Assembly (NCBI RefSeq): GCF_000420325.1
Contig: NZ_ATUS01000001.1
Coordinates: 562,463 to 626,462, forward strand
Source of the DNA: Spongiibacter tropicus DSM 19543
GTDB lineage: Bacteria > Pseudomonadota > Gammaproteobacteria > Pseudomonadales > Spongiibacteraceae
DNA length: 64,000 bases
Direction of reading: 5' to 3'
The position numbers were made by a program, and so were the translations under genes. Within the stretch, counting starts at the first letter, position 1; every line of letters starts with the position of its first letter. A model generated the notes under the pieces. It was not told the origin of the DNA. It saw nothing but the letters and a program-made list of their open reading frames with translations, and did no database searches. This document shows, piece after piece, positions 45,304 to 64,000 of this stretch.

Positions 45304-46488
45304 CTACAGGAAAAAATCCGTGTTTTTGGCACCCAACAGGGTCGCCCCTAGGTTGCGCCCAAACTTGAAGGGATTGTTGGCCACGTGCTGGCGACCCGCA
45401 TTGATATCCAGCCACGCCCGATTCAGGGGATGCCCACGGAAAATACCCTGCGCCCCACAGGCAATAAAGAGTTCATTAACGGCGTCGGCGCATTTCTTGG
45501 AAATACTGGCCGCGTGGAAGCGACGCTGAATACGCTCACTCATTTCCAGACTTTCGCCGCGCTCGGCACTGTTAACAAAATAATTCAAATCATCGCGCAA
45601 GGTCGCCCGACATTCAGCCACCGCTGCCACCGCATTGGCCAGCGCCATCTGCACGTTCGGATCCTGAGCCACTTTGGCACCGTCATTCAGTCCCACGCGC
45701 TCGCGATTGACCTCGATGTAACTGTTGACGACGCCCTGCAAGGCACCGATGGAAGAGCAGGCTACCGCCCGCGTAAAAATCTGTCCAAAAGGCAGGGTAA
45801 ACAACGGACTGGTATTGACGGCGCAGCCGGGGTTTTCACCACTGAAGCCGTCCATGCTGCGATGCGTCCGGTGCTCCGGCACAAACACAGGCTCGTCGAT
45901 GACAATATCGTTGGAGCCCGTGCCCTGCAGGCCGCTTACATCCCAATTGTCGACAATACGGTAGTCACTAAGCGGCACCAGAAAGGTTCGATAATCATGT
46001 GCCTCGCCGGGTGTGGCGGGGGGCGCCATCCCGCCGAGAAACGCCCACTGACAGTGCTTGGAACCCGAGGAAAACCCCCAGTGTCCCGACAACATATAGC
46101 CGCCCTCAACGCGAGAGACCTTGCCGACCGGCATATACGATGAGGAAATCAGCACACTGCTGTCCTCGCTCCACACATCCTGCTGCGCACGGTCGTCGAA
46201 CATGCCGAGCTGCCAATTGTGGATCGCCACCACGCCCAGCACCCAGGCCGTGGACATACAGCCCTCCGCCAGGGTTTGCTGCACGTCAAAAAACACCTGC
46301 GGCGGCAGCTCAAAACCGCCATAGCGCTTGGGCTGCATGATGCGGAAAAAGCCACTGCGCTGCATATCGGCAATCGTTGCATCGGGCAGTCGCCCGAGTT
46401 CAGCCGCCTCAGCCTGGCGCTCGATCAGTGCCGGCACCAGTGCGCGGGCATCGGCCATCAGTTGGTTTACGCGATTGTGATCAGTCAC
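45304..46488 (-). CDS. Flavin-dependent monooxygenase, HsaA-like (acyl-CoA dehydrogenase fold)
   Basis: The 394-residue protein has the acyl-CoA dehydrogenase fold of group D flavin monooxygenases and the same length as mycobacterial HsaA. HsaA hydroxylates 3-HSA to the catechol 3,4-DHSA with reduced flavin from a partner reductase. Seen motifs are MQPKRYGGFELPP, GHWGFSSGSKHCQWAFLGG and IACGAQGIFRGHPLNRAWLD. The GTG start has GAGG nine bases before. No reductase (HsaB) gene is next to it. A general ring-hydroxylating monooxygenase is possible, but the extradiol and KshA neighbours favour HsaA-type work. Confidence 0.82.
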   Translation of the reverse strand: MTDHNRVNQLMADARALVPALIERQAEAAELGRLPDATIADMQRSGFFRIMQPKRYGGFELPPQVFFDVQQTLAEGCMSTAWVLGVVAIHNWQLGMFDDRAQQDVWSEDSSVLISSSYMPVGKVSRVEGGYMLSGHWGFSSGSKHCQWAFLGGMAPPATPGEAHDYRTFLVPLSDYRIVDNWDVSGLQGTGSNDIVIDEPVFVPEHRTHRSMDGFSGENPGCAVNTSPLFTLPFGQIFTRAVACSSIGALQGVVNSYIEVNRERVGLNDGAKVAQDPNVQMALANAVAAVAECRATLRDDLNYFVNSAERGESLEMSERIQRRFHAASISKKCADAVNELFIACGAQGIFRGHPLNRAWLDINAGRQHVANNPFKFGRNLGATLLGAKNTDFFL

Positions 46489-46521
46489 CTTGTTATCCTC
46501 TTTCTGAATTCGGGGGTAAAG

Positions 46522-47418
46522 CTATTGCCAGTGGTGTCCCCACTCCGAGGGACGGCGGCTAAACGTGGGCCGGTACTGCTGCCAGTCGAGCTGCAAGCCG
46601 TCGCAGCCAAATTCAATGGCAAAGCCTGCCGGGCTCTCGACGTACACGGAAATCATCTGGTCGTTGCAATGACGGCCCAATGTCGAAACGACGGGCACTT
46701 CATGCTCCCGGCAGCGATCCATAAACTGCCCCACCTCGTTGATATCCGTCACCTCAACCATCAGGTGAATACAGCCGTTATCCGGGGGCTGCGGCGCTTC
46801 GTAAATCGCCAGACTGTGATGCCGTGGGTTATCGACATGGAGAAAATGCAGACGCTGACCGCCGTCAGGGCCGTCAAAGTGCATGGAGTCGGTGCGCTCG
46901 AAGCCCAGCAACTCACGGTAAAAGGCGTAGCAAGCATCAAACTGACGGGTTGGCAGCACATAGTGGCCGAGCCCCATATCACCGTTAAAGCCCGTCTCAA
47001 ACCGCAACACATTGGCGGGACTTTGCAGGGGCTGGTAGTCGAGCGCACAGCTTTGCACCAGCTCCACGCACTGCCCGCTGGGGTCGAACAGACGCAGCCC
47101 CGCCGCCACATTGCGCAGCGCGCAATCGCTGTCTGAAAGCGGCTCAACGATTTGTCCAGCCGCGCGCAAATCCTCGGCGACATCGTTCAAAGCCAGTTCG
47201 GGGTCCAGCTCCCAACCCGCGGTATGCAAGCGCTCCCGATCACCGGGCACCACAGCCAGGCGCCAGCAGTAGGCGTCCATCTTGAAACGCAGCCAGCCGG
47301 AAGATTCCGCCGCCAGGGGCATCATGCCCACCACCTCGGCCAGAAATGGCTGCCATCGATGAGGCTGTGCTGACTCAATCAGCAAATAGGCCAGCGCGTT
47401 AACGTTGCAAACCGCCAT
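46522..47418 (-). CDS. Type I extradiol ring-cleavage dioxygenase (BphC/HsaC-like)
   Basis: The 298-residue two-module VOC enzyme opens a catechol ring next to the hydroxyls. Iron ligands are His152 (GLGHYVLP), His218 (CIHLMVEV) and Glu269 (FAIEFGCDG). Catalytic-type His201, His250 and Tyr259 are also present. Family members cleave 2,3-dihydroxybiphenyl or the steroid catechol 3,4-DHSA. The ATG overlaps the stop of the KshA-like gene by one base (TGATG). With the neighbours, 3,4-DHSA dioxygenase is the favoured role. Confidence 0.88.
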   Translation of the reverse strand: MAVCNVNALAYLLIESAQPHRWQPFLAEVVGMMPLAAESSGWLRFKMDAYCWRLAVVPGDRERLHTAGWELDPELALNDVAEDLRAAGQIVEPLSDSDCALRNVAAGLRLFDPSGQCVELVQSCALDYQPLQSPANVLRFETGFNGDMGLGHYVLPTRQFDACYAFYRELLGFERTDSMHFDGPDGGQRLHFLHVDNPRHHSLAIYEAPQPPDNGCIHLMVEVTDINEVGQFMDRCREHEVPVVSTLGRHCNDQMISVYVESPAGFAIEFGCDGLQLDWQQYRPTFSRRPSEWGHHWQ

Positions 47419-48491
47419 CAGTGCTGCTCCCGGCCGCGACGCGGTTTAATCTTGGTTTCGTGTTCCTTGTGTACCGTCAGCGCCGCTGGAATTTCCGCCA
47501 CGTCCATATAGAACTGGCTGTACCACTTACGGAGCATGTGTACCGGGCCATCGCCATCACACATCAGCGGATTGTCGATACGGACTTTGTTGTTCCAGAT
47601 ATCCACGTCCTGAATAAAGGAATCCACGCTCATCTGGGTGTAGGCGTCGACCATCGCAGCATTTTCGGCTTCGCTCAGTGAGGGGTCTTTGCGCACCATC
47701 ACCCCCAGTCGAATCACGAAATTTTCCATATCGATAGGCACGTGACTGACCAGCAAGTGCGTCGTCACCTCCCTGCCGTCCATCGAGCCGGTCATGGTGG
47801 TCGTCATATACGCCGGGCCTTCATAGGTGGCGACGGAGGTAAAGCCCTGCCCCTCATCCGCGAGAATATCGTGGCCGCCTGTCATCACCTGAGTATAGGT
47901 GTGACCGTCCTGAATATTTTTGAAGGTCTGTACCTGGGAGTAATGTACCGGTCCAAAGTGCGCCATATCGGCCATGTTATCCACCAGTTCACGGCAATTG
48001 GAATGGATGGTGAATTCCGCCATTTTCCAGTCCGACCACTCGCCGGAAAAATAGTCCTCGTTGCGCCGGGGGCGTTGCTCGGCAATCGGCGGCTGCCCCT
48101 CGGGGTCATGCCACACAAACGCCAGACCATTTTCTTCCAGCACGGGCATCGCCGGGATAACGGCCTTGGGAGGAATACGGTCCGCGTAGGGAATATCGTC
48201 GCAAACACCGTCACCGCCCCAGCTCCAGTGATGAAAGGGGCACTGCAGAGAGTTTCCGCAGACTTTGCCACGACTGAGGTCCGCGCCCATATGGGGGCAA
48301 TAGGAGCCCACCACATACAACTGACCGTCCTCTTCCCCCCGGTAGGCCACCCACTTACTGCCAAAGTAATTCATGGCTCGAGGCTCGCTGCCAAAACTGT
48401 CGGCTTTGCCAATACAATGCCAGCCGCGGGCATAACGCTCAGGCAGAGGCTTGGTTTCAATAATATAGGGCTTGCGAAGGGCTTGGTTCAT
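47418..48491 (-). CDS. Rieske oxygenase, KshA-like (3-ketosteroid 9-alpha-hydroxylase type)
   Basis: The 357-residue protein has the Rieske ligands Cys65-x-His67 and Cys84-x2-His87 and a non-heme iron site in DNMADMAHFGPVH (His178, His183). The AHFGPVH... TFKNI layout is that of KshA, which hydroxylates C9 of 3-ketosteroids and so opens ring B. The ATG at 48491 has AGAGG nine bases upstream; the ATG at 48500 is too close to it. It is first in a four-gene operon. The reductase KshB and the dehydrogenase KstD are not in the window. Confidence 0.83.
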   Translation of the reverse strand: MNQALRKPYIIETKPLPERYARGWHCIGKADSFGSEPRAMNYFGSKWVAYRGEEDGQLYVVGSYCPHMGADLSRGKVCGNSLQCPFHHWSWGGDGVCDDIPYADRIPPKAVIPAMPVLEENGLAFVWHDPEGQPPIAEQRPRRNEDYFSGEWSDWKMAEFTIHSNCRELVDNMADMAHFGPVHYSQVQTFKNIQDGHTYTQVMTGGHDILADEGQGFTSVATYEGPAYMTTTMTGSMDGREVTTHLLVSHVPIDMENFVIRLGVMVRKDPSLSEAENAAMVDAYTQMSVDSFIQDVDIWNNKVRIDNPLMCDGDGPVHMLRKWYSQFYMDVAEIPAALTVHKEHETKIKPRRGREQH

Positions 48492-48515
48492 GGCGGCCAT
48501 CCTCTGATTCTTATG

Positions 48516-56663: not shown

Positions 56664-57425
56664 TTAAAACGTGTCCGGCCGCAGCATGGCGTCATGACCA
56701 CCGTCGACAAACACGATCGATCCGGTCATGTAGTCCGCTCCGGGGCCGAGCAAAAACTCGACAACGCTGGCAATCTGCTCTGGCTGCCCCACCTTGCCCA
56801 GCGGCACACTGTCACCAAAATCCTTCATCACCTGCCCCAGCTCCGGATCGGCCAGCACTTTGTCGCTCAGCGGCGTCTGCACAATACCCGGCGCCACGGC
56901 GTTAATGCGCAGCCCCCGGCGGGCGAGATCGCCGCTCTGGCGTCGCAACCAGCAGCAGATGCCATGCTTGGAGCCCGCGTAGGCCGAGTGTGTATCGCGG
57001 CTATCCGCCAGCTCACAGGCCGCCTCTTCGTCGCCCGCCAGCAGCAGATCAATATAGTCGTTGTGCTCAATCATCGGCGCGGAGTTCGAGGCAATCATCA
57101 CAATGCGGCCACCGCGTTTTTCCAGCAAGTCCAGCAAACCGTCTGTCATCGTAGTCGCGGCAAAGTAATTGATGCGGGTGATCAGCGATGGCGGTCGCAC
57201 CGACGGCCCCACCCCCGCGCAGGGGATAAATCCGTCGAGCCCCTCCGGGCAACGCTGGCGAATACCGTCAACAGCGCGCTGACGCCCCGCGTAGTCGCTC
57301 AGGTCTGCGCAGATGTCAGCGTCTTTCAGGTCAACGACGATGACCTTATGTCCTGCGGCTTGAAGGGTCTTGCGAATCGCGGCGCCGATTCCGGTGGCGC
57401 CGCCGCTCATGGCATAGGTAGCCAT
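56664..57425 (-). CDS. SDR resembling 3-alpha-hydroxysteroid dehydrogenase/carbonyl reductase
   Basis: From MATYAMSGGATGIGAAIRKT after AACGAGGAG the protein has 253 residues. It shows the SDR cofactor motif GGATGIG (8-14), catalytic-type Ser113 or Ser115 (IASNSAP), Tyr149 and Lys153 (YAGSKHG). The overall pattern, including VDLKDADICADLS, GVGPS, INYFAAT and the C-terminal DAMLRPDTF, resembles HsdA of Comamonas testosteroni as I recall it. It follows fbiC by 65 bases on the same strand, so it may belong to the F420 operon. SDRs normally use NAD(P). Confidence 0.82.
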   Translation of the reverse strand: MATYAMSGGATGIGAAIRKTLQAAGHKVIVVDLKDADICADLSDYAGRQRAVDGIRQRCPEGLDGFIPCAGVGPSVRPPSLITRINYFAATTMTDGLLDLLEKRGGRIVMIASNSAPMIEHNDYIDLLLAGDEEAACELADSRDTHSAYAGSKHGICCWLRRQSGDLARRGLRINAVAPGIVQTPLSDKVLADPELGQVMKDFGDSVPLGKVGQPEQIASVVEFLLGPGADYMTGSIVFVDGGHDAMLRPDTF

Positions 57426-57490
57426 TGCTGTTCTCCTCGTTTTTATTATCAATGTGAGAGTTGCGTGTATCGGGAAGCGACAGCCGTCTC

Positions 57491-59938
57491 TCAGCCGCTG
57501 GCAATTAACCCGCGTTTGCTGCGCTCGTATTTACTGGCCGGCGTGTTGACGACATCCTTCAGACTCTCTGCACGAGCCGCTCGCTCACGCTGCGCCGGGT
57601 CCGCTTCGCCGTAAAGGGTATTGCGCTGACGCGGAGAGCGCGACATGGCGCGGATGCGCGCGTCCATCTCAGCCGGACCGACTTCCTCGCCGTGGCTGGC
57701 ACCTGCCGCACGGGTAATGGTTTCGTTCATCAGCGTGCCACCCAGATCATTGGCGCCCGCATTGAGGCAGGCCAACACCCCGGCCTCACCCATTTTCACC
57801 CAGGACGCCTGAATATTGTCGATCAGGCCATGCAACACCAGCCGGGCCACCGCATGCATCAACAACGATTCTCGGAACGTCGGGCCACGACGCGCGTTAC
57901 CCTTCAGATAAATCGGCGATTCGCTGGCCACAAAGGGCAGTGGCACCAACTCGGTAAAGCCGCCACTGCGGGCCTGCAGGTCGCGAATGGCCAGCAGGTG
58001 TCGTGCCCAGTGCTGATAACCATCAACGTGGCCGAACATAATGGTCGCGGTCGTCGGCAGCCCCACCCCGTGCGCGGTTTCCATTACCGTCAGCCACTGC
58101 TGAGTATTGATTTTGTCGGGGCACAATACCGCGCGCACCTCGTCGTCCAGTACCTCGGCAGCCGTGCCCGGCAGGCTGTTCAGGCCCGCGGCCTTGAGTT
58201 GACGCAGGAATTCCTCCAACGGCAGACCCAGGGTCTCAGCGCCCTGCCACACCTCCAGCGGAGAAAACGCGTGGATGTGCATATCGGGTGAGGCCGCTCG
58301 CAGCGTGGCCAGGATATCCAGATAGGTTTGCCCGGTGTACTCGGGGTGAATCCCGCCCTGCATACAGACTTCTGTCGCGCCACGCTGCCAGGCTTCATCG
58401 GCTCGCCGGGCGATTTCTTCCGCACTCAGGTCGTAGGGCCGCCCGCGCAGATTCTCACTGAGCTTGCCCTTGGAAAAGGCGCAGAACTGACACTTGAAGT
58501 AACAGACATTGGTGTAGTTGATATTGCGATTCACGACATAGCTGACGGTATCGCCGCACACTTGCTGGCGAAGCCGGTCCGCACTGCGACAGACGGCCGC
58601 AAAATCATCGCCGCGCGCAGCAAACAGTTGAACAATCTCGTCTTCGTCAAGGCGCTCCCCGGCTTCGGCACGGCGCAGAATCGCCGCGATCGGACGGCTG
58701 GCCGCCACGCGCTCTTTACGCAGCAGCGCCATGTCGCTGTCGGGCGCCGAATCACTCTGTCCGGTGAGCCAGTCGTCAACTCTGGGCATCCCCTGTCCAT
58801 CAACCGCCTGCAACAGGCGGGGCCGCAAGGCCTTATCCAGCCAGCGCTCGGCATCGCGAATATAGCGGGGATATATTGTCAGTCGTTCCTGAAGCAGCTT
58901 GCCACTCAAGGCCGTTTCCTTCACCAGCCGCTCCACATGGGGCCAAGGCGCCTCGGGATTGACGAAGTCAGGGGTGACCGGTGATACCCCGCCCCAGTCA
59001 TTGATTCCCGCCGCCACAATCTGTGGCAATACGCCGGGGCTGAGATTCGGCGGCGCCTGAATACTCATCTCTGCACCGAAGATCAACCGAGCAACGGCGA
59101 TGGTCCAGAGCAATTCGTCCAGGTCCGGTTCGGGAGCCGAAGCCATTTTGGTATCGGGCTTGGCGCGGAAATTCTGAATAATGATTTCCTGCAGATGGCC
59201 GTGCTGCTTATGCAGGGCTCTCAAGGCCAGCAGCGACTCAATCCGCTCGCGACGCGTTTCGCCGATACCAATCAAAATCCCGGAGGTGAATGGCACACAG
59301 GCCCGCCCCGCTCTGGCCAGCGTTTCCAGGCGCACGGCAGGAGCTTTGTCGGGTGACCCGTAGTGCGGCATCCCTTTCTCACAAAGACGCTCCGACGCAG
59401 ACTCCAGCATAATGCCCATCGATGCCGACACCGGCCGCAACATGGCAATCTCGTCATCGGTCATACAGCCCGCATTGATATGCGGCAGCACTGACGTTTC
59501 TTCCAGCACCCGCCCGGCAACATGGGCCAGGTATTCCAGCGTCGATGCAAAACCCATTTCCGCCAGCGCCTCACGCGCCGCGCGATAACGCAATTCCGGC
59601 TTTTCCCCCAAGGTAAACAGGGCTTCCTTGCAGCCCAGCTTTTCCGCCTCGCGGACCTGCGCCAAGACCTGCTCTACCGGCATATAGGCCTGCTCGATGC
59701 GCTTGGGCGTTTTGGCAAAGGTGCAGTAATGGCAGACATCGCGACACAGGTGTGTCAGCGGAATAAAAACCTTGCGGGAGTATGTCACAACGCCGCCGTA
59801 GCCGCGGTCGCGAAGCTCACCGGCAACCTCCGCCAGCGCGGCGGTGTCCGAATAGTCAGCCAGCGCCAATGCCTCTGAGTCAATGAGGGCACGCTGCCGG
59901 ACGGCATCGAGTATGGCGGGCATGGATGTTGTGCTCAT
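57491..59938 (-). CDS. fbiC: F420 precursor (FO) synthase, CofG-CofH fusion FbiC
   Basis: FbiC makes the deazaflavin FO from tyrosine and a ribityl-diaminouracil. The 815-residue protein has two radical SAM halves, each with its own cluster motif: Cys65, Cys69, Cys72 (CRDVCHYC) in the CofG half and Cys479, Cys483, Cys486 (CYFKCQFC) in the CofH half. The fused form is typical of actinobacteria and of Proteobacteria that have F420; archaea use two proteins. It overlaps cofC by four bases (ATGA). Confidence 0.96.
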   Translation of the reverse strand: MSTTSMPAILDAVRQRALIDSEALALADYSDTAALAEVAGELRDRGYGGVVTYSRKVFIPLTHLCRDVCHYCTFAKTPKRIEQAYMPVEQVLAQVREAEKLGCKEALFTLGEKPELRYRAAREALAEMGFASTLEYLAHVAGRVLEETSVLPHINAGCMTDDEIAMLRPVSASMGIMLESASERLCEKGMPHYGSPDKAPAVRLETLARAGRACVPFTSGILIGIGETRRERIESLLALRALHKQHGHLQEIIIQNFRAKPDTKMASAPEPDLDELLWTIAVARLIFGAEMSIQAPPNLSPGVLPQIVAAGINDWGGVSPVTPDFVNPEAPWPHVERLVKETALSGKLLQERLTIYPRYIRDAERWLDKALRPRLLQAVDGQGMPRVDDWLTGQSDSAPDSDMALLRKERVAASRPIAAILRRAEAGERLDEDEIVQLFAARGDDFAAVCRSADRLRQQVCGDTVSYVVNRNINYTNVCYFKCQFCAFSKGKLSENLRGRPYDLSAEEIARRADEAWQRGATEVCMQGGIHPEYTGQTYLDILATLRAASPDMHIHAFSPLEVWQGAETLGLPLEEFLRQLKAAGLNSLPGTAAEVLDDEVRAVLCPDKINTQQWLTVMETAHGVGLPTTATIMFGHVDGYQHWARHLLAIRDLQARSGGFTELVPLPFVASESPIYLKGNARRGPTFRESLLMHAVARLVLHGLIDNIQASWVKMGEAGVLACLNAGANDLGGTLMNETITRAAGASHGEEVGPAEMDARIRAMSRSPRQRNTLYGEADPAQRERAARAESLKDVVNTPASKYERSKRGLIASG

Positions 59939-60651
59939 GATCCTTGTTGCTCCCTGTTGAGCAGGTTCGGTTCAGTATTCATTTGCCGCAAACGGCGGGC
60001 GATACCACTGCGGTGAAGATAGGCCATCGTCTGTGGCGCACACTCCCGGTCCCCCTGACTGACCAGCGCCAACAGGTCGTCACGAGTGTCAATATCTTGC
60101 GCCAGGCAGGGGCTTTGCTGCACGTAAAAATGCAAGCCTGCGTACTCGGCTTCCTGTCGGTGGGCATCCAGACTATTTTCGCCGTAGCGCAGCGGGATGC
60201 GGCGCTGCAATGGCATTAACACGGCGTTACTGCCGCTGCCGTGACGGTCAGTGGCGATGGCAACCGCGTCGTCAGCATAGCCCTGCAGCGCGCAGAGCTG
60301 CTGCAATTCGCTGATATTCAATAACGGCAAGTCGCCGTGCACAATCATCACTCGACTCGGCGCGTCCGCCCGCGAAGCAATGCGGGAGAGCGCAGCCTCC
60401 AGCACCGCATTCAGGCCACTGCCCAGTTCGCTTTCGGGCCAGCAGTCGGCGGCAAAATGCTCCGCCAGCAGATGCGCGGCAGGGTCGTCCGAGACCAAAA
60501 TCAGCCGACGATTTTCAGGCAGCGTAGACAGCACGGCCATTACGTCTTCCACCATGTGCTGAAACAGCGCCCGCCGCTCTGCCACACTCAAGCAGCCCGA
60601 CAGGCGCTGCTTGGCTTTAACAAAATCTTTGAGAGGCAGAAGCAACCACAT
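59935..60651 (-). CDS. cofC: Phospholactate/phosphoenolpyruvate guanylyltransferase CofC
   Basis: CofC (FbiD) activates a three-carbon phospho acid with GTP to make the side-chain donor of F420. The 238-residue protein has the nucleotidyltransferase fold: LLLPLKDFVKAKQRLSGCLS at the N-terminus, VMIVHGDLPLLN and DRHGSGSNAVLMP. Depending on the lineage the substrate is 2-phospholactate, phosphoenolpyruvate or 3-phosphoglycerate; the sequence alone does not settle it. It lies 3 bases after cofD. Confidence 0.93.
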   Translation of the reverse strand: MWLLLPLKDFVKAKQRLSGCLSVAERRALFQHMVEDVMAVLSTLPENRRLILVSDDPAAHLLAEHFAADCWPESELGSGLNAVLEAALSRIASRADAPSRVMIVHGDLPLLNISELQQLCALQGYADDAVAIATDRHGSGSNAVLMPLQRRIPLRYGENSLDAHRQEAEYAGLHFYVQQSPCLAQDIDTRDDLLALVSQGDRECAPQTMAYLHRSGIARRLRQMNTEPNLLNREQQGS

Positions 60652-60654
60652 AGA

Positions 60655-61611
60655 TCAATGCAGCTCCGCTAGCAGGCTCAGGGTATCGACGGCGAGTTGG
60701 CGTTTACTGGCCAGATCCCTCATCAGGCTCTGGGCGGTACGACACTGGCGACGGGGATTGGCAATCTGCGCACACTGTTCTCGGTCGCAGTCATCGATAA
60801 TAAATCCATCAAGCAGATCGCCATAATAGTCCGCCACCGCGGCGGCAGTATTCGGCATATCCAGCTCTTCCATCAGCTTGGCTGCGGGCCCTTTTACCGC
60901 GCGCCCGGAAATAATCGGAGAAACGCCAACAACCGGCACACCGGCAGCGGCAATCGCCTCACGACAGCCGCGCAGGGACAGAATCGGATCAATGCTCAAA
61001 AACGGATTGGAAGGGCAAATCACAATGCCGGTCAGCGCCGGGTCTGCCAATGCCTCATGGACGGCCGGATTCAGTTCGGCCGCGTCAATGCCCTCGAAAA
61101 CGATGCGTTCAACTTTCGGCTCGCAGCGCTCACGAACAAAGTATTCCTGGAATGCCAGCTCACCCTGGTCGCTGTGAACCCGCGTTGCCACGCTCTGCTC
61201 GGTCATCGGCAGCAATCGGCAGGGGCTGCCCAGACGCTCTGCCAGCGCAGCGGTCACCGCGGTCAGCGATTCCCCTCGGCGCAGGGCCATGGTTCTGAAA
61301 AGGTGGGTAGCAAGATCCTGATCACCCAACTGGAACCACTCGTCTCCTGTCAGGCGCCGCATGGCAACCATGGTACGCCAGCTCTCGTCGCGCAGCCCCC
61401 AGCCACGCTCTTCGTCATTCAGGTCCGCGAGGGCGTAAAGAATCGAGTCGATATCGGGGCAGATGCGCAGGTCCCAGTAGTCGAAATCGTCGGCCGTATT
61501 CGCAACCACGGTCAGTTGATCGGGCGCCAGACATTCAGCCAGTCCTCTGGCCAGCTTGGCCCCGCCGACGCCACCGCTGAGCGCAACAATTTTCCCGGAA
61601 AAAACCTGCAT
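60655..61611 (-). CDS. cofD: 2-phospho-L-lactate transferase CofD
   Basis: CofD (FbiA) transfers the phospho-acid moiety to FO, giving F420-0 or its dehydro form. The 318-residue protein has VALSGGVGGAKLARGLAECL at residues 9-28, NTADDFDYWDLRICPDID in the active site and ICPSNPFLSIDPILSL for substrate binding. The ATG shares bases with the cofE stop. Length is normal for the family. Confidence 0.96.
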   Translation of the reverse strand: MQVFSGKIVALSGGVGGAKLARGLAECLAPDQLTVVANTADDFDYWDLRICPDIDSILYALADLNDEERGWGLRDESWRTMVAMRRLTGDEWFQLGDQDLATHLFRTMALRRGESLTAVTAALAERLGSPCRLLPMTEQSVATRVHSDQGELAFQEYFVRERCEPKVERIVFEGIDAAELNPAVHEALADPALTGIVICPSNPFLSIDPILSLRGCREAIAAAGVPVVGVSPIISGRAVKGPAAKLMEELDMPNTAAAVADYYGDLLDGFIIDDCDREQCAQIANPRRQCRTAQSLMRDLASKRQLAVDTLSLLAELH

Positions 61612-62381
61612 CAGCGGAACATGTCCTTATCTCGATCGCGCAACAGTGCGGCCGATCCCTGCTCGGCGGGACGCAATTTGGCACCGCGCATCAGCACAAC
61701 CGGACTGCCCTCGTCAGCCTGTCCCATAACGTAGGACGCCGCCGCCGCCAATTCATCGGCCACCGCAATTTCGGTCACTTCGAGCACACGGCCATACAGG
61801 TCGCGATCACCGATACGGTTCTCGACCACCTCGAAGCCCGCTGTTCCCAGCGCAAAGCCGATTGTGCCGTGACGCCAGGCGCGCCCGGCGCTGTCGTTAA
61901 TGATGACGGCAACATTCACGCCGCACTGCTCGGCCAGATAGCGCCGCAGCGCCGCCGCGCTGGCGTCGGGGTCCAACGGCAACAGGAGTACCTGCGGATC
62001 GTCCTCACTGCCGGGAATATTGGACTTATCGATACCGGCATTGGCCTGCACGACACCGTGGCGGGTTTCCACAATCACCACGCCAGGCCGAGCTCTAAGA
62101 ATCTCGCGAGACTCACGCAGCAACAGTTCCATCTGACGAGGATCTTTGTCGCAGCGCTCGGCCAGCTCTCTCGCCTGCTCTCCGGGTTCAACCTCGGCCA
62201 GCCGTGCATAGCGACCTTCGGCTTTGGAGACAATTTTCTGTGCCAGCACCAGTACATCGCCGTCCTGCAATGACAAGCCATTGTCATCCAGGCAGCGAAG
62301 AATCTGTGCACCGAGCTCATCCCCTGGTTCTACCAGCGGGTAGCCCTGCAAAGCCCAAAGTTGAAGTTGCGAACTGGCCAT
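61611..62381 (-). CDS. cofE: F420-0:gamma-glutamyl ligase CofE
   Basis: CofE adds glutamates to F420-0. The 256-residue protein has LQDGDVLVLAQKIVSKAEGR, VVETRHGVVQANAGIDKSN and NDSAGRAWRHGTIGFALG. It lacks the C-terminal FMN-binding domain of mycobacterial FbiB, so it is the short archaeal-like form. If phosphoenolpyruvate is the CofC substrate, some other enzyme would be needed to reduce dehydro-F420. It follows npdG by 8 bases. Confidence 0.95.
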   Translation of the reverse strand: MASSQLQLWALQGYPLVEPGDELGAQILRCLDDNGLSLQDGDVLVLAQKIVSKAEGRYARLAEVEPGEQARELAERCDKDPRQMELLLRESREILRARPGVVIVETRHGVVQANAGIDKSNIPGSEDDPQVLLLPLDPDASAAALRRYLAEQCGVNVAVIINDSAGRAWRHGTIGFALGTAGFEVVENRIGDRDLYGRVLEVTEIAVADELAAAASYVMGQADEGSPVVLMRGAKLRPAEQGSAALLRDRDKDMFR

Positions 62382-62389
62382 CGGAGACC

Positions 62390-63064
62390 TTACTGATCAG
62401 TACCGGTCAGCTTGATACCAGCGTGGCACTTGTACTGTTTGTTAATAAAGATAAGCAAGGACGTCATCGCCTCTACCGCCGCTGCATTGGCAATACTGCC
62501 TGCATGAAAACCGCGCAGCCCGGCGGCTTCCACCAACTCAATGACCGCAGCACGGGCGTCTTTACTGTCGCCGCACACCAGCACGTCACAATCCAGTTCT
62601 GACCCTTCCTGAAGGTGCACTGCCGCCACATTCTGGAAGGCGGAAACCACCTGCACGCCCTCACCGAGAATCTGCTGGGCAATCTGGCCAGCAGAACCTT
62701 CCTCAGGCAATTGCACGCGCGCAACCTTCGGCGGCACCAACGGCACGGTCACATCAATCAGAATTTTACCCTGCAATGCATTTTTCAGCAATTCCAAGGT
62801 ATCGCGCTGGTGAGCAAAAGGAACCGTCAGTGCAGCGATGTCCGCTGCCTCGGCGGCAGCCAGATTATCCATGGCCTCCACATTGACCGCATCAACGCCG
62901 CGCTCGGCCATCAGCGCCTTCAATTCGGCAACCGCCTGCTCGGCCTTTTCCTGAGTCCGAGAACCGATGATGACCCGGTAGCCCGCCTGCGCCCAGCGCC
63001 GCGCCAAACCCGTACCCAGATTGCCTGTACCGCCAAGAATCGCTATCACCGAATGCGTAGACAT
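62390..63064 (-). CDS. npdG: NADPH-dependent F420 reductase
   Basis: The enzyme (also called Fno) passes hydride between NADPH and F420. From MSTHSVIAILGGTGNLGTGL, after AAGGTGG, the protein has 224 residues. The Rossmann motif GGTGNLG and the NADP-phosphate contact in IIGSRTQEKA are clear, as are DVTVPLVPP and SIANAAAVEAMTSLLI. It is the first gene of the F420 operon and gives the cell a way to make reduced F420. An upstream in-frame GTG at 63151 is not supported. Confidence 0.93.
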   Translation of the reverse strand: MSTHSVIAILGGTGNLGTGLARRWAQAGYRVIIGSRTQEKAEQAVAELKALMAERGVDAVNVEAMDNLAAAEAADIAALTVPFAHQRDTLELLKNALQGKILIDVTVPLVPPKVARVQLPEEGSAGQIAQQILGEGVQVVSAFQNVAAVHLQEGSELDCDVLVCGDSKDARAAVIELVEAAGLRGFHAGSIANAAAVEAMTSLLIFINKQYKCHAGIKLTGTDQ

Positions 63065-63140
63065 AAATACCACCTTGTTATGATTGCTATAGCGCGGCGC
63101 CAAGTCATCTTGAAGCCACCACGCGCGATAAAGTCGAGCT

Positions 63141-63171
63141 AGTGTAACCACAGCCCCTGTGGGCGAACACT
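63141..63171. promoter_or_regulatory. Inverted repeat at the F420 operon promoter
   Basis: CCACAG and CTGTGG (63148-63162) are perfect inverted arms around CCC, and an outer pair AGTGT (63141-63145) and ACACT (63167-63171) extends the symmetry. The outer left arm overlaps TACACT on the minus strand, a possible -10 for npdG, though no good -35 matches it. This looks like an operator for the F420 operon. The regulator is unknown. Confidence 0.45.
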
Positions 63172-63332: not shown

Positions 63333-64000
63333 ATGCAAAGCGCACTGGATTTTTCGGGTAAGGTAGTCATTGTTACAGGGGGCGGAAAAGGCGTTGGAAA
63401 AGGGATAAGCGAACGCTTTCTTGAGGCCGGTGCCGATGTCGCCATCTGCGGCCGTTCCGAACCGGAAAGCCTGCCCACAGCCAACGGTCGCACTGCATTT
63501 TACAGAGCTCTGGACGTCCGGGACCCCGATGCCGTTCAGGCTTTTGTCAGTGAAGTCGCCGAACATTTTGGGCGCATCGATGTTCTGGTGAATAACGCTG
63601 GCGGCGCGCCCTTTGCCGACGCCGCCACCGCGTCACCGCGCTTCTCGGAGTCCATTGTTCGCCTGAATCTACTCGCGCCACTGTTTTTTGCCCAGGCCTG
63701 CAATGCGGTTATGCAACAGCAGCAAAGCGGCGGCAGCATTGTGAACATCGCCTCAGTCAGTGCCCAACGCCCCTCTCCGGGCACCGCTGCCTATGGCGCC
63801 GCGAAGGCGGGACTGATGAGTCTCGGCACGTCGCTCGCCGTGGAGTGGGCACCCAAGGTTCGTTGTAACACGATTATTGCCGGACTGATTCGTACCGAGC
63901 AGTCGCACCTTCACTACGGCGATGAAGAAGGCATCGCGGCTGTCGGACGGACCATACCGCTGGGACGCATGGCCGTGCCGCAGGATATTGCCGATGCCTG
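63333..64000 (+). CDS. SDR family oxidoreductase (cut by window end)
   Basis: The visible 222 residues start MQSALDFSGKVVIVTGGGKG with the cofactor motif TGGGKGVG at 15-22. They also contain VLVNNAGGAP, catalytic-type Ser in NIASVSAQRPS and Tyr/Lys in AYGAAKAG. The frame is open at the window end and about 30 residues are probably missing. The sequence resembles SDRs found with steroid and F420 genes in actinobacteria, but I cannot name an ortholog. It is divergent from the F420 operon across 268 bases that hold two inverted repeats. Confidence 0.9.
   Translation, partial: MQSALDFSGKVVIVTGGGKGVGKGISERFLEAGADVAICGRSEPESLPTANGRTAFYRALDVRDPDAVQAFVSEVAEHFGRIDVLVNNAGGAPFADAATASPRFSESIVRLNLLAPLFFAQACNAVMQQQQSGGSIVNIASVSAQRPSPGTAAYGAAKAGLMSLGTSLAVEWAPKVRCNTIIAGLIRTEQSHLHYGDEEGIAAVGRTIPLGRMAVPQDIADA

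Follow-up and report, generated by a model that had tools for sequence, protein, structure and literature searches.

The routes described for the side chain of coenzyme F420 differ in their starting compound. In mycobacteria and Thermomicrobium, phosphoenolpyruvate (PEP) leads to dehydro-F420, which is reduced by the C-terminal domain of FbiB (FbiB-C) or by FbiE, and in Mycetohabitans the use of 3-phosphoglycerate (3-PG) skips this step (accessible text of PMC8764529 and PMC8498797). The accessible text of PMC8764529 also describes dehydro-F420 as less stable and gives Ser or Thr at CofC position 162 as the mark of 3-PG use. A separate enzyme, 'CofX', has been predicted in archaea and some bacteria (accessible part of PMC6450877). 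Outside Actinobacteria, according to the available part of a 2021 review, no F420H2-dependent enzyme of an F420-producing bacterium has been studied experimentally, and the role of the cofactor is open (PMC8498797). Rv3520c is grouped with the mycobacterial cholesterol genes (accessible text of PMC6429209 and PMC12855090), and a figure legend places CofC, CofD and CofE genes beside steroid isomerase and acyl-CoA genes in the cholesterol degrader Sterolibacterium denitrificans (PMC6678751). Steroid degradation is reported for Spongiibacteraceae and Halieaceae isolates in a paper whose available text does not mention F420 (PMC5790920). Here we compare these systems with a five-gene F420 operon of the gammaproteobacterium Spongiibacter tropicus DSM 19543, located in a 64,000-nucleotide stretch of contig NZ_ATUS01000001.1 (the window). 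Coordinates are positions in the window unless a locus is named; the genome comprises 3.95 Mb in 7 contigs, with a completeness of 100.

We read the locus as a functional chromosomal F420 operon whose reduced product, F420H2, serves enzymes with genes in other parts of the genome, some of this use falling in steroid catabolism, and give this reading a probability of about 0.6. FbiC would make FO, and CofC and CofD would attach an activated phospho-acid, which by the CofC residues would be 2-phospholactate or PEP and not 3-PG. CofE would then add the glutamate tail, and NpdG would reduce F420 with NADPH. The users of F420H2 would be mainly luciferase-like (LLM) proteins, two of them of the Rv3520c family, and Ddn-type flavin/deazaflavin oxidoreductases of type A (FDOR-A), with part of this use probably falling in steroid catabolism.

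A compact operon with intact-looking genes

The five F420 genes and their profile scores are as follows.

62390..63064, minus strand: npdG, NADPH-dependent F420 reductase (Fno); TIGR01915 211.4 bits, cut-off 149.8; best PDB match 5n2i, reduced F420:NADP oxidoreductase
61611..62381, minus strand: cofE, F420-0:L-glutamate ligase, single domain, 256 amino acids; TIGR01916 284 bits, cut-off 180.65; best PDB match 2phn (CofE)
60655..61611, minus strand: cofD, FO phospho-acid transferase; TIGR01819 297.7 bits, cut-off 257.45; PDB matches 3c3d and 6uvx
59935..60651, minus strand: cofC, phospho-acid guanylyltransferase; TIGR03552 133 bits, cut-off 105; aligned to 7p97 and 6bwg
57491..59938, minus strand: fbiC, fused CofG-CofH FO synthase, 815 amino acids; NF006687 1151.9 bits, cut-off 1018; CxxxCxxC at residues 65 and 479

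The genes are closely packed, with an 8-base gap between npdG and cofE, a 1-base overlap of cofE and cofD, a 3-base gap between cofD and cofC, and a 4-base overlap of cofC and fbiC. These junctions bear out the preliminary description of this DNA, which had placed five F420 genes on one strand with gaps of at most 8 bases or overlaps. The span that it gave, 56664 to 63151, does contain the operon; its left end takes in an unnamed sixth gene, a short-chain dehydrogenase/reductase (SDR), and its right end is better moved inward. The npdG start is most likely the ATG at 63064, which is preceded by the Shine-Dalgarno-like sequence AAGGTGG, rather than the GTG at 63151.

All five genes are open frames, and all five exceed curated NCBIfam equivalog cut-offs in a profile scan. 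Because of this, and because the gene order recurs across the order Pseudomonadales, the set is not a product of chance. Residue-level checks covered the motifs of FbiC and the aspartates of CofC, and not individual residues of CofD or CofE; they found both radical-SAM CxxxCxxC motifs of FbiC (residues 65 and 479) and all three Mg-binding aspartates of CofC to be kept. With five cut-offs passed and these motifs intact, the earlier claim that this gammaproteobacterium has a complete, intact-looking F420 gene set, including an NADPH:F420 reductase, stands. A promoter scan gave results at chance level (3 found, 2.7 expected) and a terminator scan fell below chance (4 found, 7.8 expected). Among the named CofD proteins found, the one most similar to the window copy is from Neomelitea salexigens (72%), followed by those of Spongiibacter marinus (71%) and S. 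thalassae (67%).

Candidate F420 users and their co-occurrence with CofD

A genome-wide profile search for LLM and FDOR families, proposed as a check in the preliminary description, found 14 LLM genes (PF00296) and 2 Ddn-type FDOR-A genes (PF04075). Eleven of the 14 LLM genes exceed an F420-named NCBIfam cut-off (two TIGR03559, one TIGR03617, one TIGR03857 and seven TIGR03619), such names being annotation labels and not tests of cofactor use. One of the others passes TIGR03558, which has no F420 in its model name, and two pass no cut-off. PF01243 (PNPOx-type), the only FDOR-B model run, has no match in the genome. None of the scanned LLM proteins reaches the Fgd-type cut-offs TIGR03554 and TIGR03557, so NpdG is the likely F420 reductase. 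The LLM and FDOR-A genes sit in varied genomic contexts. The first impression that no user of the cofactor could be named is thus correct for the window, where none was noted, but not for the genome as a whole, which encodes these 11 LLM and 2 FDOR-A candidates for F420 binding.

CofD was surveyed with TIGR01819 in 390 genomes of the order. Of the 114 matches at E <= 0.001, twelve weak ones (E 1.6e-5 to 7.1e-4) were discarded as apparent YvcK-type relatives. The 102 CofD-positive genomes that remain represent 45 genera and 23 families, and 80 of them had their operon loci fetched. TIGR03559 (Rv3520c type, E <= 1e-80) is present in 80 of the 102 CofD-positive genomes and in 3 of the 288 CofD-negative ones; for PF04075 the numbers are 75 and 5. 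Counted by genus, TIGR03559 is found in 35 of 45 against 1 of 97, whereas the figures for PF04075 are 32 of 45 and 2 of 97. This pattern is strong at both the genome and the genus level, though the counts are not independent: the genomes are related, and p-values overstate the evidence. Within the genus of the window, 15 of the 17 sampled members have CofD, and the two that do not (G212 and G308) are also without FbiC, PF04075, TIGR03559 and HsaA matches.

Steroid-type genes around the operon

Genes of steroid type lie on both sides of the operon. Those within the window are listed here.

45304..46488, minus strand: HsaA-like 3-HSA hydroxylase oxygenase; NF045629 380.6 bits, below cut-off 450; best PDB match 2rfq (3-HSA hydroxylase), 270.5 bits
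46522..47418, minus strand: HsaC/BphC-like extradiol dioxygenase; TIGR03213 241.4 bits and NF045631 235.8 bits, below cut-offs 366 and 450
47418..48500, minus strand: KshA-like Rieske oxygenase; PDB matches 4qdc 312.9, 4qdf 302.4 and 2zyl 275 bits, all KshA, next 51.3; no NCBIfam match at E <= 1e-30
56664..57425, minus strand: sixth gene in line on this strand, an SDR similar to 3-alpha-hydroxysteroid dehydrogenase; PDB matches 2dkn 199.5 and 1fjh 182.7 bits, both 3-alpha-hydroxysteroid dehydrogenases, next 69.8; NF009092 113.5 bits, below cut-off 242

The sixth gene begins 65 bases past fbiC and has a ribosome-binding-site-like sequence at its start. A similar SDR is found at this place in 12 of 14 fetched loci of the genus, after fbiC in 10 and after cofD, with fbiC moved, in 2. 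The HsaA/HsaC/KshA-like set of the window (45304-48500) lies 8.2 kb past the sixth gene. Starting about 4.5 kb beyond npdG, in locus L252, is a second set composed of HsaA-like, HsaC-like, Rieske, aldolase, acetaldehyde dehydrogenase, hydratase and HsaD/BphD-like hydrolase genes. Two members of this set, the aldolase and the acetaldehyde dehydrogenase, reach their cut-offs, and the others do not. Its Rieske gene is 55% identical to the KshA-like copy of the window, and the genome contains three HsaA-like genes at E <= 1e-80. The operon is flanked by two parallel KshA/HsaC/HsaA-like sets, at 45304-48500 and at L252:6002-9324, both on the minus strand.

Across the order, HsaA (E <= 1e-100) lies within 50 kb of cofD in 18 of the 49 CofD-positive genomes that have it, where about 2.3 would be expected; the chance figure assumes 4-Mb genomes, and 21 of the 49 have both genes on one contig. 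A literature search, judged by title and abstract opening among the matches listed and covering few subscription journals, found no report of F420 in gammaproteobacterial steroid breakdown.

The side-chain step

By residue, the window CofC reads as a 2-phospholactate/PEP-type enzyme and not as one with the 3-PG signature. It has Leu, Leu, Ser and Gly where the Mycetohabitans enzyme has M91, C95, H145 and S162, the M91 position being read through the alignment with L92 of Mycobacterium tuberculosis (the phmmer pairing with 7p97 is gapped there). Position 162 is Ser or Thr in none of 75 readable rows from the order, the window included (65 Gly, 9 Asp and 1 Asn); one further row was unreadable, and 5 of the 80 loci have no cofC in the stretch. 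The ten CofC proteins with Asp or Asn (L159, L162, L189, L190, L191, L201, L202, L204, L208 and L211) all come from family f39. Their loop, such as FDGxSF, resembles the loop FSGPSF of the 3-PG enzyme, and their specificity may differ.

The window CofE does not carry the FbiB C-terminal reductase domain, and the best genome score with the dehydro-F420 reductase model TIGR03553 is 56.9 bits, against a cut-off of 249.55. A further profile, A1, was derived from a set of 80 genomic-contig loci distinct from the 80 loci of the order. A nitroreductase gene is present in the F420 region of 45 of these, all titled Chloroflexi or Anaerolineae, and lies between cofE and cofD in all 41 Chloroflexi/Anaerolineae loci in which both were called; A1 contains 22 of the 46 nitroreductase open reading frames (ORFs) from the 45 loci. 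Its best PDB match is FbiB-C (4xom, 134.9 bits, next 106.2). It scores the Thermomicrobium roseum gene, which lies outside the profile, at 212 bits, and at 225.7 bits the gene directly after fbiC in the betaproteobacterium Pusillimonas caeni (L058), where the five-gene order is the same. The four nitroreductase-family (PF00881) genes of the window genome score 76, 56, 52 and 28 bits. No A1 match at E < 1e-5 turned up in any of the 80 order loci, and the best match over the 390 genomes, with at most eight candidates scored per genome, is 93.7 bits.

A1-matching nitroreductases of the order were considered as FbiE and rejected: 17 of the 20 fetched score at least 154 bits against a protein of the window genome that we take to be BluB-like from its gene neighbours. 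Three proteins from one genus (L217, L221 and L225, from G179, G200 and G039, one of these genomes CofD-negative) score 94-95 bits, are not BluB-like and could be divergent FbiE. A second type of nitroreductase, which adjoins cofD on Paenarthrobacter and Rhodococcus plasmids (L257:6179-6988 and L262:6153-6983), is barely recognised by A1 (26-27 bits). Since such A1-poor nitroreductases stand beside cofD, non-orthologous dehydro-F420 reductases are possible, and the window genome may encode a non-homologous one.

Judged from sequence, neither known side-chain solution, a 3-PG-type CofC or an FbiB/FbiE reductase, is seen here. The single-domain CofE, the failure to detect FbiB-C or FbiE and the CofC without 3-PG residues therefore leave one chemical step, the predicted reduction of a dehydro-intermediate, without an assigned gene, unless 2-phospholactate is the substrate. 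The initial statement that all dedicated steps are present is accurate for the five genes but has to be qualified for this step.

A conserved divergent SDR

A further SDR gene is divergent to npdG.

63333..64000, plus strand, running off the stretch (full gene 259 amino acids, L252:1795-2574): SDR of the PRK07856 family; start ATG 63333; NF005893 343.8 bits for the truncated copy, cut-off 255

An SDR of this family is divergent to npdG in 28 of the 73 order loci in which npdG was called, spanning 9 families. In the 15 of these 28 loci that were compared, it is 63-86% identical to the window copy, and CofD only 44-71%; the SDR is thus the more conserved of the two in these 15. The protein has no PDB match at E <= 1e-40. 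In two members of the genus (G192 and G252; L152, L172, L236 and L237), cofE-cofD lies beside SDRs with no npdG called there, and fbiC lies elsewhere (with cofC in G252). The displacement of fbiC from cofE-cofD in these genomes indicates that the operon can break up.

Distribution, operon types and ancestry

The order npdG-cofE-cofD-cofC-fbiC is found in 51 of the 80 fetched loci, and 8 more keep it with cofC and fbiC merged into a single gene, cofC leading (59 of 80). Another 14 show a partial set, with contig ends or genes elsewhere. The remaining 7 have a different layout, in which separate cofG and cofH genes are followed by cofD, cofC, cofE and npdG and then by an LLM-like ORF of 333-336 amino acids. 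A Paracoccus plasmid has the same layout, and its LLM-like gene is annotated TIGR03842. Fusion of CofC to the FbiC N-terminus occurs in 14 loci, 10 of the 80 order loci (2 without npdG in the stretch) and four others (L057, L059, L060 and L071), and no published description of it was found in the literature search, as far as the text of the papers was available.

CofC-CofG-CofH three-domain fusions, about 1000-1110 amino acids: L057, L059, L060, L071, L136, L153, L167, L175, L184, L188, L194, L196, L200, L207

A CofD tree was calculated from 73 type I rows (window included) and 7 split rows, together with 16 from Chloroflexi, 11 from plasmids and 7 others, with L203 left out and the root placed only by midpoint. 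The family of the window forms one clade of 16 rows (support 100/92). The seven rows with the other layout are set off from all remaining rows in a group (100/94) that they share with the copy on the Paracoccus plasmid and a Natrinema plasmid row on a long branch. These two groupings with their distinct layouts imply that operons of two or more lineages exist in the order, and that the operon was inherited within the family of the window. A recent horizontal acquisition, visible as CofD nested in a foreign clade and patchy in the genus, was not found.

The preliminary description had called F420 genes in Proteobacteria scattered, probably by transfer. Presence in 15 of 17 genus members and a single family clade do not fit scatter at this level. 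Deeper in the tree, horizontal transfer is plausible and indeed likely, since similar operons are carried on alpha- and betaproteobacterial plasmids (12 of 39 plasmid records were fetched) and the second layout groups with the Paracoccus plasmid. The suggested CofD phylogeny thus resolves the family clade and the second operon type; its backbone, with open forks and one actinobacterial row, names neither donor nor direction.

Weighing the explanations

Several results weigh against a working F420 operon that partly serves steroid catabolism. The genome yielded no match that qualifies as a dehydro-F420 reductase like FbiB-C or FbiE, and A1 matches at E <= 1e-20 show a weak enrichment with CofD, being present in 21 of 102 CofD-positive and 20 of 288 CofD-negative genomes (p 0.0003). 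The HsaA-, HsaC- and HsaD-like proteins score below NCBIfam cut-offs. Eleven of the 18 genomes with linked cofD and HsaA belong to the window's own genus, and in one member of that genus, G023, CofD and TIGR03559 are present while HsaA and PF04075 have no match. Eighteen CofD-positive genomes have neither PF04075 nor TIGR03559. HsaA-like genes (E <= 1e-100) occur in 20 of 288 CofD-negative genomes and are missing from 53 of 102 CofD-positive ones; F420 is therefore neither required for nor restricted to steroid catabolism, and on these counts across 390 genomes a steroid-only role was rejected as too strong. A wider proposal is that the steroid catabolism of marine Gammaproteobacteria relies in practice on F420, in a manner shared with mycobacteria by way of the Rv3520c family, and that the cofactor is made without either known side-chain solution, through a still unassigned dehydro-F420 reductase ('CofX') or a bacterial source of 2-phospholactate. 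We advance it tentatively, as possible rather than probable.

The same gene content could reflect ordinary F420 for broad reductive chemistry on xenobiotics, quinones or secondary metabolites, with catabolic genes merely clustering in the region and the steroid neighbourhood incidental. The broad TIGR03619 family accounts for seven of the 11 above-cut-off LLM genes, the contexts of the LLM and FDOR-A genes are varied, and about half of the CofD-positive genomes are without HsaA at E <= 1e-100, all of which suits this explanation. We nevertheless consider it rather unlikely given the 3-alpha-hydroxysteroid dehydrogenase-like gene after fbiC, with its counterparts in 12 of 14 genus loci, the cofD-HsaA distances far below chance in genomes of families f1, f40 and f47, and the co-occurrence of the Rv3520c-type family with CofD. 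In another explanation the product is a side-chain variant, 3PG-F420 or dehydro-F420, since no dehydro-F420 reductase is encoded. Here the best A1 score of the genome (76 bits, against 135 for M. tuberculosis FbiB-C and 212 for T. roseum) and the 3-PG enzyme 7p97 as best PDB match of CofC count in favour, but CofC has Gly where Ser or Thr marks 3-PG use, a residue pair seen in none of the 75 order rows, and Leu for Met and Cys, and dehydro-F420 is the less stable form (accessible text of PMC8764529); a variant product is accordingly improbable. A silent, relic operon, or one that supplies nothing but FO to serve as antenna of a photolyase, would agree with the absence of the genes from 2 of 17 sampled genus members and with the promoter scan, but would leave unexplained five open genes with intact checked motifs, retention in the other 15 members and the co-occurrence of candidate users with CofD. 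CofD, CofC and CofE are dispensable for FO synthesis and would be superfluous in an FO-only operon; with cofC, cofD and cofE present, photolyase or FO-only use was set aside, no search for a photolyase having been made, and we hold a relic or FO-only role to be very improbable indeed.

Comparison with known systems

The gene set is of a known kind and ordinary for its relatives. Its interest lies in three points: the probable use of F420 in steroid catabolism, the side-chain step and the conserved divergent SDR. A plasmid of Paraburkholderia sp. PGU19 has the five genes in the order of the window operon, and on pSymA of Sinorhizobium meliloti npdG is followed, after a gap in which no gene is listed, by cofD, cofC and fbiC; neither shows a nitroreductase match nearby. 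Plasmid 2 of Aromatoleum has the same genes as the window operon, but with fbiC first. Whereas these alpha- and betaproteobacterial operons are plasmid-borne, the window operon is chromosomal, is kept in most sampled members of its genus and is flanked by steroid-type genes.

As in the PEP route of Actinobacteria and Thermomicrobium (FbiD-FbiA-FbiB or FbiE), the window operon encodes homologous CofC, CofD and CofE together with FbiC, and its CofC has 2-phospholactate/PEP-type residues in common with that route. It differs in that the FbiB C-terminal domain and an FbiE-type nitroreductase were not found in the window genome. The CofC of the Mycetohabitans 3PG-F420 route, 7p97, is the best PDB match of the window CofC at 69.7 bits, but its M91, C95, H145 and S162 are replaced. 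The question of side-chain reduction is sharpened by Pusillimonas caeni, in which the same five-gene order comes with an FbiE-type gene that is present in none of the 80 order loci.

The closest parallel for the surroundings of the operon is mycobacterial cholesterol catabolism with Rv3520c, where TIGR03559 LLM proteins and HsaA/KshA-like genes likewise occur in one genome. The present case differs in being gammaproteobacterial, in having HsaA and HsaC below curated cut-offs, and in that the F420 operon physically adjoins the cluster. The role of F420 outside Actinobacteria thereby becomes a concrete question, whether it serves steroid breakdown, that can be answered in the cultured type strains of the genus.

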